Assembly: GCA_003225295.1 (NCBI GenBank)
Contig: QHYZ01000053.1
Coordinates: forward strand, 1-64,000
Direction: 5' to 3'
Source: Acidobacteriota bacterium
Lineage (GTDB): Bacteria > Acidobacteriota > Terriglobia > Acidiferrales > UBA7541
DNA: 64,000 nucleotides
Part shown: positions 45,059-62,386 of the stretch, piece by piece
Layout: each line of letters begins with the position of its first letter
Position numbering within the stretch: position 1 is the first letter of the stretch
Notes under the pieces: model-generated
Seen by the model: the letters and a program-made list of their open reading frames with translations, nothing else
Databases searched by the model: none
Told to the model about the DNA's origin: nothing
Made by a program: the position numbers and the translations under genes

Positions 45059-47254
45059 ATGCCGAATACTGTAGGCACGCAATTCGCGAGGACGTTCGAT
45101 TGGATTGTTTGCAAAACGGCCGGAATCACCTTTAATACCATCCAGTACTTCAACAAGCGTAATCCCAATCCTTCGGTCACGCCGAAATGGTCGGATAAGC
45201 CGCTGCTGAAATCATGGGAAAAGACCAAGCCGACACTGGGCTTCCCGCGGCAGACCGACTCGCTTTGTCCCGCGTGCGTGAAGGAAGCGCGCGAAGCGAT
45301 CATCGCAGGCAAGAAGGATTGGCGCGACCTGATGCATGAGAAGGTCGGAGAGATCAAAGCGCAGATCATCGAGCGCGACGGGCAGGTGTGGATGGTGAAG
45401 GATTGCGCGCTGCACGGCCACTACGAGGACATGATGGCTGTCGATTCCAAGTGGCTGAGCTGGATCGAACGCCAGTACCCAGGCCGCGACATTCCCGCAC
45501 ACAACGATGAGGACCTTCACAAGCACGGCTCCTCGACGGTGCGATATGGCCGCGGCTCGGTGCTCACCGTCGACCTGACGAACCGCTGCAACATGATGTG
45601 CGATCCTTGCTTTATGGACGCGAACCAGGTCGGCTACGTGCATGAGCTTGGCTGGGAAGAGATAAAGGAAATCCTGGATAACGCGCTGAAGATTAAGCCG
45701 CGCCGCCAGATGTCCGTGCAGTTCAGCGGCGGCGAGCCGACGATGAGCCCCTATTTCTTTGATGCGGTCGCCTACGCACGCAAGATCGGCTATAACAGCG
45801 TGCAGGCCGCGACGAACGGGATCGAGTTTGCCAAGAGTAAGGAGTTCTGCAAGAAGGCGTTCGAAGCGGGCATGCGCTATGCGTACCTGCAGTTTGACGG
45901 CATCGGCAACGACGCCAACAGCCACCGGCAGATCGGTAACCTGTTCGATGTGAAGCTGCGCGCCATCGAGAACATGCACGAGGCGGGGATCGAAATCGTG
46001 CTCGTCGTGACCATCGTCAATAACGTGAACAACGATCAGGTCGGCACCGTCGTGAAGTTTGCCATGGAGAACCCCAAGAAGATCGCGTTTGTCAGTTTCC
46101 AGCCGGTTTCCTTTACCGGTCGCGACGAGGACATTACTCCGGAACGCCGCTTGCGCCAGCGCTATACGCTTTCGCACCTGGCGAAAGACGTCAGCACCCA
46201 GGTGGGCAAAGTCGAACCGACCCGCGACTGGTTCCCGATTTCCTTCGTCAGCACGTTTGCAGGATTCTCGGACATGGTGAAGGGGCCAGAGTCGCAATGG
46301 GGTTCGCTTTCCTGCGGTTGCCATCCCAACTGTGGGGTGGGTACGGCGCTGATGATCAACAAGGAGACCAAGGAATGGGCTCCCGTTCCGCGCTTCCTCG
46401 ATGCCGTACAGCTTACGAAAGACGTCACCGACATTACCGATGCGGCCCGCGGTAAGAATTTCTCGAACTTCATGATGGCCATGGCCCTCTTGAAGAACTA
46501 CAAGCCCTTCCAAGGCCCCAAGGGACTGAAGTTGTATGACCTCTTCAAGAAATTTGACAAGACCTGGGCGCTGACCAAGGACTCGGAGAAGAAATACGGT
46601 CGGACTTCACCGGACCGCACCTACGAAGACGCCATGCGGCGCCGGCAGACCGATCCGTGGAACTTCCTGTTCATCGCGGGGATGTGGTTCCAGGATCTGT
46701 TCAACTACGATTTCCGCCGCACCGAGATGTGCATCATTCCGTACGCGACGCAGCAGGGTGAGATCAGCTTCTGCGCGTACAACACCGGTGTGGGCTGGAG
46801 ACAGATCATCGAGAACATGCATAAGAACGCGACCGTGGCCGAGTGGTACAAGAACCACGGCAAACATGAAATCTACGCGAAAGGCAAGAACGTCAACTTG
46901 CAGAGCTTTGAGCATTCCTTGAAGATTGACGCTGAAGACGCGGCTCGCGTGCGGCACCTGGAGCACGATATTCCGGTGACTGCCGCCGAAGAGGACCGCG
47001 CTCGCCGCAAGAAGGCTTACGAAGAACAGGCCAAGGTCCGAGCGATTTATGAAGAGCTGGTACTGAAGAAGCCTCAGCCGGCGGTCGTGCAGATCGGCAC
47101 CGTCAGCGACATCGCCAAAGCCGTGCCTGCTAATTTCGCTAATGCAGGCAAGTCGGTCACCATCGCTGCTGCTAATGGCAATGGCCACTCCAACGGTAAC
47201 GGCGCCGCAACCAAGACGGATGAGAAGGCGGCCGAAGCGGTCGCCGGCGACTAA
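45059..47254 (+). CDS. Radical SAM protein of the Tes/MJ0619 family (putative membrane-spanning lipid synthase)
   Basis: 731 residues. The radical SAM cluster motif is Cys177-x3-Cys181-x2-Cys184 (TNRCNMMCDPCF), followed by the SAM-binding SGGEPTMSP. Before it lies the hallmark of the archaeal Tes/MJ0619 family: a Cys pair (Cys70, Cys73), then VWMVKDCALHGHYEDMMAVD with Cys116 and His119. A C-terminal Cys group (LSCGCHPNCGVG, and CIIPYATQQG) may hold further Fe-S clusters. Archaeal Tes joins lipid tails to make tetraethers; bacterial relatives have been linked to membrane-spanning lipids such as the iso-diabolic acid of Acidobacteriota. The tail after about residue 690 is Gly/Asn/Ala-rich and disordered. 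The substrate assignment is an inference. Confidence 0.85.
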   Translation: MPNTVGTQFARTFDWIVCKTAGITFNTIQYFNKRNPNPSVTPKWSDKPLLKSWEKTKPTLGFPRQTDSLCPACVKEAREAIIAGKKDWRDLMHEKVGEIKAQIIERDGQVWMVKDCALHGHYEDMMAVDSKWLSWIERQYPGRDIPAHNDEDLHKHGSSTVRYGRGSVLTVDLTNRCNMMCDPCFMDANQVGYVHELGWEEIKEILDNALKIKPRRQMSVQFSGGEPTMSPYFFDAVAYARKIGYNSVQAATNGIEFAKSKEFCKKAFEAGMRYAYLQFDGIGNDANSHRQIGNLFDVKLRAIENMHEAGIEIVLVVTIVNNVNNDQVGTVVKFAMENPKKIAFVSFQPVSFTGRDEDITPERRLRQRYTLSHLAKDVSTQVGKVEPTRDWFPISFVSTFAGFSDMVKGPESQWGSLSCGCHPNCGVGTALMINKETKEWAPVPRFLDAVQLTKDVTDITDAARGKNFSNFMMAMALLKNYKPFQGPKGLKLYDLFKKFDKTWALTKDSEKKYGRTSPDRTYEDAMRRRQTDPWNFLFIAGMWFQDLFNYDFRRTEMCIIPYATQQGEISFCAYNTGVGWRQIIENMHKNATVAEWYKNHGKHEIYAKGKNVNLQSFEHSLKIDAEDAARVRHLEHDIPVTAAEEDRARRKKAYEEQAKVRAIYEELVLKKPQPAVVQIGTVSDIAKAVPANFANAGKSVTIAAANGNGHSNGNGAATKTDEKAAEAVAGD

Positions 47255-47703: not shown

Positions 47704-47934
47704 ATGCCAATTTACGAATACATTTGCGAGGATTGCCTGACGCGCTTTGAGAAGATTGTGCTGAACAAAACCCAGGAGATTGCCTGCCCGACGTGCGCGG
47801 GGAAGAAGAACGCGATTCAGCTTTCGGTCTTCAGCGCCGCGAATGGCTCGAGTAACGGCGCTTCGGCCAAATCATCCGGAGGGTCCTCCGGAGGCGGAGG
47901 CAGTTGCTGCGGCGGCGGATGCGGTTGCCACTGA
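47704..47934 (+). CDS. FmdB-family zinc ribbon protein
   Basis: 76 residues. The N-terminal zinc ribbon MPIYEYICEDCLTRFEKIV has Cys8-x2-Cys11, then Cys28-x2-Cys31 (CPTC), the FmdB pattern. The C-terminal half is Ser/Gly-rich and ends in a Cys cluster (SCCGGGCGCH). FmdB proteins are putative regulators; the function is not known. It precedes a LysE-type exporter by 21 bases. Confidence 0.9.
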   Translation: MPIYEYICEDCLTRFEKIVLNKTQEIACPTCAGKKNAIQLSVFSAANGSSNGASAKSSGGSSGGGGSCCGGGCGCH

Positions 47935-61402: not shown

Positions 61403-62386
61403 ATGACCCTTTACGACAAATTCGGCCGCCAGATCACCGACCTTCGCATCTCCATCACAGACCGTTGCAATTTCCGCTGCGTCTACTGCCGCTCCGCCGA
61501 TCCCGAAAACTATCGCGATCACGACGAAATTCTCTCCTGGCCCGAGCTCGATCGCCTCGCCAGGATCTTCCTAGGCCTGGGCATCCGCAAAATCCGCATC
61601 ACCGGCGGCGAGCCGCTCGTCCGCGAAGGCGTCGAGGATTATATCGCCCGTCTGCAGGCCCTCGGCGTCGAGGACCTCTCCATGACCACCAACGGTCACC
61701 TGCTGGCGCAACGGTGCCACCGGCTGCTTGCCGCCGGTCTCCGCCGCATCAACATCAGCCTCGATTCGCTCGACCCCGAGAGATTCGAACGCATCACCAG
61801 AACCAGTTCTTTTTCGACCGTGATGCACAGCATCGATGTCGCTCAGAAATCACGCCTGGCGCCAGCCAAAGTGAATGCCGTCCTGGTCCGGGGCCTCAAC
61901 GACGACGAAGTCGAGGCCTTCGCTTTGTTCGCCCGCGAAACCGGCGTCATCATGCGCTTTATCGAATTCATGCCGCTCGATGCGGACCGCCACTGGACAC
62001 GCGACCTCGTGGTGCCGGCGGCCGAAGTCCACCAGCGCATCCACCTCCGCTGGCCACTCGTGCAGATTCCGCATGAGCGCAGCGAGACCGCGCGCAAATA
62101 CCGCTTCGCCGACGGCGCGCCCGGCGAAATCGGCCTTATCGCCCCGGTGACCCAGCCTTTCTGTGGCCATTGCTCCCGCATCCGGCTGACTGCCGACGGC
62201 AAGCTCCGCACCTGCCTGTTCAGCAAGGACGATCATGACCTGCGTGCGCTGCTTCGCGAAGGAGCATCCGACGAGGATTTGGTCACCTATATCGGTTCCA
62301 TTGTCATGGAAAAAGAGGAGGGCCATCGCATCAACGAGCCCGGCTTCGTACAACCCTCTCGTACCATGGTATTTATCGGCGGGTAG
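61403..62386 (+). CDS. moaA: GTP 3',8-cyclase MoaA
   Basis: 327 residues. Radical SAM cluster Cys22-x3-Cys26-x2-Cys29 (RCNFRCVYC), ITGGEPLVREG, and the second Fe-S cluster with CGHCSRIRLTADGKLRTCLF. The protein ends in the conserved double glycine (FIGG). MoaA makes the first intermediate of molybdenum-cofactor biosynthesis from GTP, together with MoaC. It is preceded by a Moco riboswitch and terminator, so feedback control is expected. No other moa gene lies in the window. Confidence 0.97.
   Translation: MTLYDKFGRQITDLRISITDRCNFRCVYCRSADPENYRDHDEILSWPELDRLARIFLGLGIRKIRITGGEPLVREGVEDYIARLQALGVEDLSMTTNGHLLAQRCHRLLAAGLRRINISLDSLDPERFERITRTSSFSTVMHSIDVAQKSRLAPAKVNAVLVRGLNDDEVEAFALFARETGVIMRFIEFMPLDADRHWTRDLVVPAAEVHQRIHLRWPLVQIPHERSETARKYRFADGAPGEIGLIAPVTQPFCGHCSRIRLTADGKLRTCLFSKDDHDLRALLREGASDEDLVTYIGSIVMEKEEGHRINEPGFVQPSRTMVFIGG

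Follow-up and report, generated by a model that had tools for sequence, protein, structure and literature searches.

A gene on the forward strand of the 64,000-nucleotide stretch analysed here (positions 1 to 64,000 of contig QHYZ01000053.1, assembly GCA_003225295.1, from an Acidobacteriota bacterium; hereafter the window, at its full length) encodes a radical S-adenosylmethionine (SAM) protein that is a real, well-placed variant of the tetraether synthase (Tes) kind and a good candidate for the enzyme behind iso-diabolic acid. The gene spans positions 45059 to 47254, its product has 731 residues, and it represents a subfamily of proposed iso-diabolic acid synthases referred to here as the window type. 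Archaeal Tes is the enzyme that joins two lipid tails across the membrane, and iso-diabolic acid is a membrane-spanning fatty acid common in soil Acidobacteria. Proxies in wide use for soil temperature are based on branched tetraethers and the iso-diabolic unit from which they are built; in the excerpts of the literature on Acidobacteria consulted for this work, no demonstration of an acidobacterial tail-joining enzyme was found. A role for acidobacterial Tes homologs in making membrane-spanning lipids has already been suggested in print (PMC8941075).

The likeness to Tes and its structurally known member MJ0619, which the original prediction had noticed by eye, is upheld by the profiles NF045702, PF23545 and PF04055 and by the structure 7tol of the Protein Data Bank (PDB). 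In the NCBIfam scan, in which 52 families matched at E values up to 1 (25 shown), Tes (NF045702) was the top family, with an E value of 6.5e-94 and 315.3 bits over residues 65-589 (313.8 bits in the search of the whole genome). The curated Tes cut-off of 450 bits was not reached, and acidobacterial proteins above it score 472-619 bits. PF23545, the MJ0619-type "HMPTM N-terminal zinc ribbon", matched with 48.8 bits against a cut-off of 27, and PF04055, the radical SAM superfamily, with 69.1 bits against 29.5. GDGT-MAS was the best PDB relative by sequence (7tol, 2.9e-57; next match, 2.5e-07) and also by fold, since a Foldseek search with the AF2 model returned 7tom (1.7e-24) and 7tol (8.0e-24) on top, followed by a third match at 1.9e-6. 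Thus, the profile search, set beforehand as a possible refutation, placed no unrelated radical SAM family at the top. The model superimposes on 7tom with a TM score of 0.77 by target length, which indicates a predicted GDGT-MAS fold. It was built from 52 sequences, in an alignment whose rows are all 68-95% identical to the window protein, and has a mean predicted local distance difference test score (pLDDT) of 65 and a predicted TM score (pTM) of 0.73; pLDDT falls below 50 at residues 142-196 and 544-594, and the metal geometry of the model was therefore not used. Judged from its sequence, the protein is Tes-like and not Tes, because it scores under the equivalog cut-off and has lost the ligands of the N-terminal auxiliary cluster.

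This loss was traced in an alignment of MJ0619 with 91 distinct acidobacterial proteins of at least 430 residues, drawn from 107 hits after removal of identical copies and short fragments. The 91 rows comprise 60 window-type proteins, 30 canonical Tes and one divergent second copy from the genome that carries the window. MJ0619 has four metal sites: a rubredoxin-type site (C9/C12/C33/H36), an N-terminal [4Fe-4S] cluster (C73/C77/C80 and a histidine), the radical SAM cluster, and a C-terminal [4Fe-4S] cluster with the labile Met439 (PMC9433317). Lloyd et al. (2022) tied carbon-carbon coupling to the radical SAM cluster, the C-cluster and the labile methionine, and called the roles of the other cofactors in GDGT-MAS unclear (PMC9433317). 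In the window protein, the rubredoxin-type site corresponds to C70, C73, C116 and H119 (positions 45266..45415, within the PF23545 match), that is, to the N-terminal cysteine pair and the CALHGH segment (residues 116-121) named in the original prediction; the loop that separates the two pairs is longer than in MJ0619. Its cysteines are retained in all 60 window-type rows and its histidine in 59. The radical SAM motif CX3CX2C (C177, C181, C184; 45587..45610) was verified in the 731-residue reading frame and is present in 60/60 rows. The MJ0619 residues F106, Q268, S271 and R275, which were examined as adenosine contacts, are likewise retained in 60/60.

At the N-cluster, none of the 60 window-type rows keeps any of the three cysteines, whereas all 30 canonical acidobacterial Tes keep them. 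The window protein carries the segment H154-x-H156-G-x-S159 there (45518..45535), so that the columns of C73, C77 and C80 hold a gap (D in another alignment), H156 and S159, and the two histidines H154 and H156 are found in every window-type row. The additional C-terminal cysteines mentioned in the original prediction are present, namely C419, C421, C425, C558 and C572. Three of them, together with M542, align with MJ0619 Cys338, Cys455, Cys470 and Met439 and are kept in 60/60 rows; C338, C455 and C470 are here taken as the cysteine ligands of the C-cluster, as their conservation suggests. C425 (= C338) lies in the segment SCGCHPNCG (46310..46336) with C419 and C421, and the remaining ligands, M542 (the labile methionine), C558 and C572, lie at 46682..46774. 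C419 is invariant in the window type (60/60) and rare in canonical Tes (3/30), while C421 occurs in 59/60 and 24/30 rows, respectively. From the ligands kept and lost in the 60 rows, the predicted outfit is a radical SAM cluster, a C-cluster and rubredoxin-type iron, with the N-cluster absent; occupancy is what we infer from these residues. The three iron-sulfur sites for which the original prediction suggested a check are accordingly not borne out as clusters: relative to MJ0619 the cysteines of one cluster are missing, and two [4Fe-4S] clusters and one rubredoxin-like site would be expected.

The window type forms a separate clade that nearly every genome of its class carries and that has come up only in acidobacterial genomes, the 80 strongest of 583 relatives having been considered. 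A maximum-likelihood tree of 50 rows, for which the program warned of long branches, sets the window type (31 rows, including the divergent second copy) apart from canonical Tes and MJ0619 with support of 100/100. Compared with MJ0619, the window protein is 30.7% identical, window-type proteins in general 30-35% and canonical acidobacterial Tes 38-47%. Genomes were counted as window type when their best match to the window protein was stronger than 1e-110, a cut of our own. In a draw of genomes from the phylum, 173 of 297 matched at 1e-20, of which 143 were window type and 30 weaker, and canonical Tes above the cut-off was found in 34. The genomes of the window's own class within this draw carried the window type in 33 of 33 cases and canonical Tes in 3 of 33. 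In a second draw of 200 genomes from the class, 193 matched at 1e-60 (158 of the 162 good ones) and 188 were window type. Acidobacterial Tes homologs are split, as far as their sequences tell, into two kinds by the presence or absence of the N-cluster cysteines. No report of this loss or of the two-group split was found in the literature searched, which consisted of excerpts from the main texts of open-access papers.

The distribution of the window type agrees with the iso-diabolic lineages considered here. In the genus description of Chloracidobacterium, iso-diabolic acid is among the primary fatty acids (PMC12816986). Searched with the window protein, the genome taken as Chloracidobacterium validum BV2-C yields three matches; the strongest, included in the alignment, is 68% identical. 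This genome has neither a Tes above the cut-off nor a match to DUF2229, a domain of the PlsA/Ger ester reductases. Isolates of Terriglobia, taken here from record titles as the class of the window, are rich in the acid: it makes up 12-30% of fatty acids in Edaphobacter (PMC11354219), 27-49% in the Occallatibacter group (PMC12935467) and 30-31% in Acidisarcina (PMC6252331). The comparison with phenotype covers makers of iso-diabolic acid. The Edaphobacter study found no glycerol ethers of iso-diabolic acid under its conditions, unlike an earlier study cited there (PMC11354219).

DUF2229 separates the two kinds of homolog further. It was found in 68 of the 297 phylum genomes, and canonical Tes co-occurs with it, whereas the window type does not: the domain is present in 23/34 genomes with Tes versus 45/263 without it, and in 28/143 window-type genomes versus 40/154 others, counts compared in tests that ignore relatedness. 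Among window-type genomes the domain follows Tes (11/12 with Tes versus 17/131 without), and it occurs in 28/132 genomes that have neither gene. The window's own genome gave no match to DUF2229, and Thermotoga maritima matched as a control. Two examples that were scanned contain two BadF/BcrA activase stretches and DUF2229, which is the layout described for Ger (PMC13274423). When frames of 1010-1070 residues were taken as the Ger type, DUF2229 frames of this length were present in 15/34 Tes genomes versus 4/263 others (G005, G035, G245 and G257). As a separate observation, one genome (G203) carries a DUF2229 gene of Ger layout 248 bp after Tes on the same strand (locus L206, 7181-12183, minus strand), a candidate operon for branched glycerol dialkyl glycerol tetraethers (brGDGTs).

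A paralog of the window protein differs in another way. The second copy in the window's genome lies at a contig edge (L222, contig C290 of G000, 9-1319) and has six orthologs (L223-L228) that are 62-77% identical; five of them belong to the genus and one to the family, and one copy (L224) has a stop within the match. In all seven copies of this third kind, the position of Cys338 is occupied by R, Q or H and that of Cys455 by S; Cys470 is kept in 7/7 and Met439 in 5/7, and the radical SAM and rubredoxin cysteines are kept in the five readable copies. The C-cluster residues are intact in all twelve further matches, which have 47-51% identity and come from other families. With its C-cluster cysteines replaced, the third kind should be unable to hold a carbon radical in the manner of Tes and may carry out radical chemistry of another kind, with a lipid tail as one conceivable substrate.

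On these grounds we regard it as fairly probable that the window-type protein makes iso-diabolic acid by joining the iso-C15 acyl tails of ester phospholipids. The radical SAM cluster would generate a 5'-deoxyadenosyl radical, which would abstract a terminal hydrogen from a fatty-acyl tail; a sulfur of the C-terminal [4Fe-4S] cluster (C425, C558, C572 and labile M542) would then hold the resulting carbon radical until a second activated tail couples with the first, tail to tail. Such coupling is expected because the parts to which Lloyd et al. assigned it are kept, and what is lost is a surface cluster of unclear role. An ester-linked iso-C15 phospholipid is the likeliest substrate, since 114 of the 131 genomes with the window type and no Tes lack DUF2229 and the isolates are rich in iso-diabolic acid; this acid in ester-bound form is the likely product. 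Canonical Tes, present in a minority of genomes, would rather tend to occur together with Ger, which reduces esters to ethers, and to work on ether lipids (brGDGTs). The joining of fatty-acid tails suggested in the original prediction thus gains support from the distribution and from C. validum, which lacks canonical Tes, and keeps the standing of a proposal. The broader statement is more tentative still, a possibility we would not yet favour: that a distinct Tes branch of Acidobacteriota, with three metal sites, would be the iso-diabolic acid synthase that has long been sought, with ester phospholipids as its substrates, while ether brGDGTs would arise by another pathway of canonical Tes plus Ger; a further paralog in the window's genus and family, which has lost cysteines of the catalytic cluster as well, would serve some other radical reaction, possibly also on lipid tails.

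Several observations weigh against these proposals. The position of R210, which contacts 5'-deoxyadenosine in MJ0619 and is R in 30/30 canonical rows, is R in 4/60 window-type rows and Q, H, K, L, A or G in most of them (Q in the window protein). The Tes score lies below the cut-off, identity to MJ0619 is just 30.7%, and the AF2 model is weak at the metal sites. Seven of 200 class genomes (four of the 162 good ones) have no match at 1e-60, and five more match only below the window-type cut (G338, G399, G414, G428 and G456). The association with DUF2229 is structured within the phylum, 7 of the 12 genomes with both Tes and the window-type gene belonging to one genus (g43); the domain is found in 17 of 131 window-only genomes and is unspecific for lipid enzymes, as Lactococcus lactis matches as well as T. 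maritima. Three of the four exceptional genomes (G005, G245 and G257) are window-type genomes with a Ger-length DUF2229 frame and no Tes. Tes and Ger-like genes are adjacent in one of 13 Tes neighbourhoods. Around the 107 homologs no conserved lipid partner was found: the anchor gene was recovered in 96 neighbourhoods and no partner in more than 23. These neighbourhoods were tiled crudely by longest open reading frame (ORF), so that GC-rich loci may be misread, and some contigs are present twice. The loss of R210, the single Tes-Ger adjacency and the three window-only genomes with Ger-length frames have lowered our confidence both in ester-tail coupling and in the separate branch.

A competing explanation, unlikely in our view though a serious one, is that the window protein is a tail-coupling enzyme of the bacterial membrane-spanning lipid synthase (Mss) type or the Tes type already proposed for brGDGTs, acting on ester and ether lipids alike without any division of labour. 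Zeng et al. (2022) proposed that acidobacterial Tes homologs make bacterial membrane-spanning lipids, and they reported a single 32% homolog in Edaphobacter aggregans, a brGDGT maker, and 40-42% homologs in Solibacter and Koribacter (PMC8941075). To judge from identity, the former is probably window type and the latter canonical. The same proposal was repeated for Solibacter, with two homologs and PlsAR (PMC10087280), and a 2025 paper described it as unconfirmed (PMC11868695). According to PMC13274423, Mss does not distinguish ester from ether lipids and the Thermotoga enzyme likewise produces membrane-spanning lipids; Mss homologs in Acidobacteria are implied there. Ca. Koribacter, with its 42% homolog (PMC8941075), makes iso-diabolic tetraesters (PMC13274423). 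With these tetraesters from an organism with a Tes-type homolog, brGDGT in E. aggregans and the three window-only genomes with Ger-length frames, a strict split between ester and ether is not forced. In the three class genomes that have both genes, Tes and the window-type gene share a strand and are separated by 245 bp, 3.4 kb and 5.7 kb (L085, L086 and L087), a proximity that counts for the proposed coupling role and for this alternative alike; two of the three share a genus, and one event may account for it. In G037, G069 and G250, outside the class, the two genes are listed on different contigs, a point against the proposed role. An enzyme without division of labour is nevertheless harder to reconcile with a separate clade that has its own invariant changes, and with a DUF2229 domain that is associated with Tes and unassociated with the window type.

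It is improbable, in our estimate, that the protein acts on another hydrophobic substrate (e.g., quinone, hopanoid or lipopeptide tails) and that an unrelated enzyme makes iso-diabolic acid. The 27 further radical SAM matches in the genome, the lack of a lipid neighbour and the missing R210 would suit such an enzyme, as would the bacterial GDGT-MAS homologs in organisms not known for biphytanyl chains (PMC9433317); the retention of the C-cluster ligands, labile methionine, rubredoxin site and fold of a lipid-coupling enzyme, and a distribution that agrees with the iso-diabolic lineages seen, argue otherwise. Finally, a canonical tetraether synthase that directly makes archaeal-type or branched GDGTs is very hard to credit: Tes is the best family, but the score is 315 bits against a cut-off of 450, the clade is separate, the N-cluster ligands are lost, and the genome has no DUF2229 while the T. 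maritima control matches. Coupling of ester-linked iso-C15 tails is thus the reading we retain. The bacterial enzymes supported by expression are Mss and Ger, as cited in PMC13274423 and PMC11604127; co-expression in the latter gave ether lipids and no membrane-spanning lipids.

The 731-residue frame starts with ATG, about 11 nt downstream of GGAGG, and is real and not a chance ORF, as it is conserved at 75-96% identity in genomes of the same genus and family among the listed rows of the class draw. The genome is a draft of 8.13 Mb in 385 contigs. Among the best 80 of 583 relatives, the closest are acidobacterial metagenome-assembled genomes (MAGs), whose best segments are up to 96% identical; among them, Ca. 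Acidiferrum typicum and MAGs of gp2 stand at 86-90%, and several records are titled Terriglobia. A copy with 89% identity in a record titled "Betaproteobacteria bacterium" (L108) probably comes from a mislabelled acidobacterial MAG. Residues 671-731 (47069..47251) have pLDDT below 50 and probably form the disordered tail that was originally predicted. No promoter or terminator signal above chance was found around the gene. An amphipathic N-terminal membrane helix was considered and dropped, the hydrophobic moment of the AF2 helix at residues 4-32 being matched by 10% of shuffles. A viral origin was likewise rejected, with a single weak match in viral contigs (28% identity, radical SAM core only), and so was a defence role of the viperin kind (46.6 bits, limited to the generic core).

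Of the four neighbouring ORFs scanned with Pfam, two had no match, one is a LysE transporter and one a hydrolase; with the 107 neighbourhoods, they agree with the original prediction that no lipid gene lies alongside, and an operon reading was abandoned after neighbourhood clustering gave no conserved lipid partner. A small CxxC zinc-ribbon ORF (47704-47934, plus strand; FmdB-like by eye) follows the gene and is found nearby in 7 of the 107 neighbourhoods. In four loci the window-type gene is directly preceded by a radical SAM gene of 357 residues (e.g., L065, 8381-9454, plus strand); the latter reaches no NCBIfam cut-off and matches Pfam radical SAM and Fer4_12 alone. The window also holds a second radical SAM ORF (61403-62386, plus strand, 327 residues), MoaA-like by eye, which is the best PF04055 match of the genome.

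The presence or absence of the N-cluster cysteines is a countable feature and provides a gene marker for the two kinds of acidobacterial Tes homolog. The natural loss of one cluster, and of two in the paralog, offers a way to learn the role of each cluster in carbon-carbon coupling.

Compared with archaeal Tes/GDGT-MAS (MJ0619, MA_1486 and Saci_0703), the window protein shares the fold, the Cys3His rubredoxin-type site, the radical SAM motif, and the C-cluster residues with the labile methionine; it differs in its 30.7% identity to MJ0619, its sub-cut-off score and its lack of the [4Fe-4S]N cysteines and R210, and it adds the invariant Cys419 and extensions at both termini. Among the homologs of Zeng et al. 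(PMC8941075), the one from E. aggregans, at 32%, is probably of its type, unlike those from Koribacter and Solibacter, whose 40-42% identity falls within the canonical range; in the excerpts of that paper, no division of the homologs by cluster content was found. Mss of Thermotoga maritima and Thermoanaerobacter resembles the window protein, by description alone, in its proposed reaction, and is said to share the catalytic architecture of Tes; it is recognised at more than 30% identity and E <= 1e-30 to the Mss query (PMC13274423). In T. maritima the Tes model found nothing at 1e-40 and TrsS nothing at 1e-25 (at 1e-10 all 14 control genomes matched), which suggests that Mss is farther from Tes than the window protein is; TrsS was dropped as a stand-in for Mss on the same result. 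TrsS itself (NF045646, a radical SAM (seleno)protein) is the second-best family, with 213 bits and a best stretch at residues 98-384, against a cut-off of 490 bits, and one canonical acidobacterial Tes scores 336 against it. Gms and GrsA/B are likewise radical SAM enzymes for membrane-spanning lipids; unlike the window protein, Gms has a SPASM domain with two auxiliary clusters, and GrsA/B are thought to carry the radical SAM cluster alone (PMC11186832).

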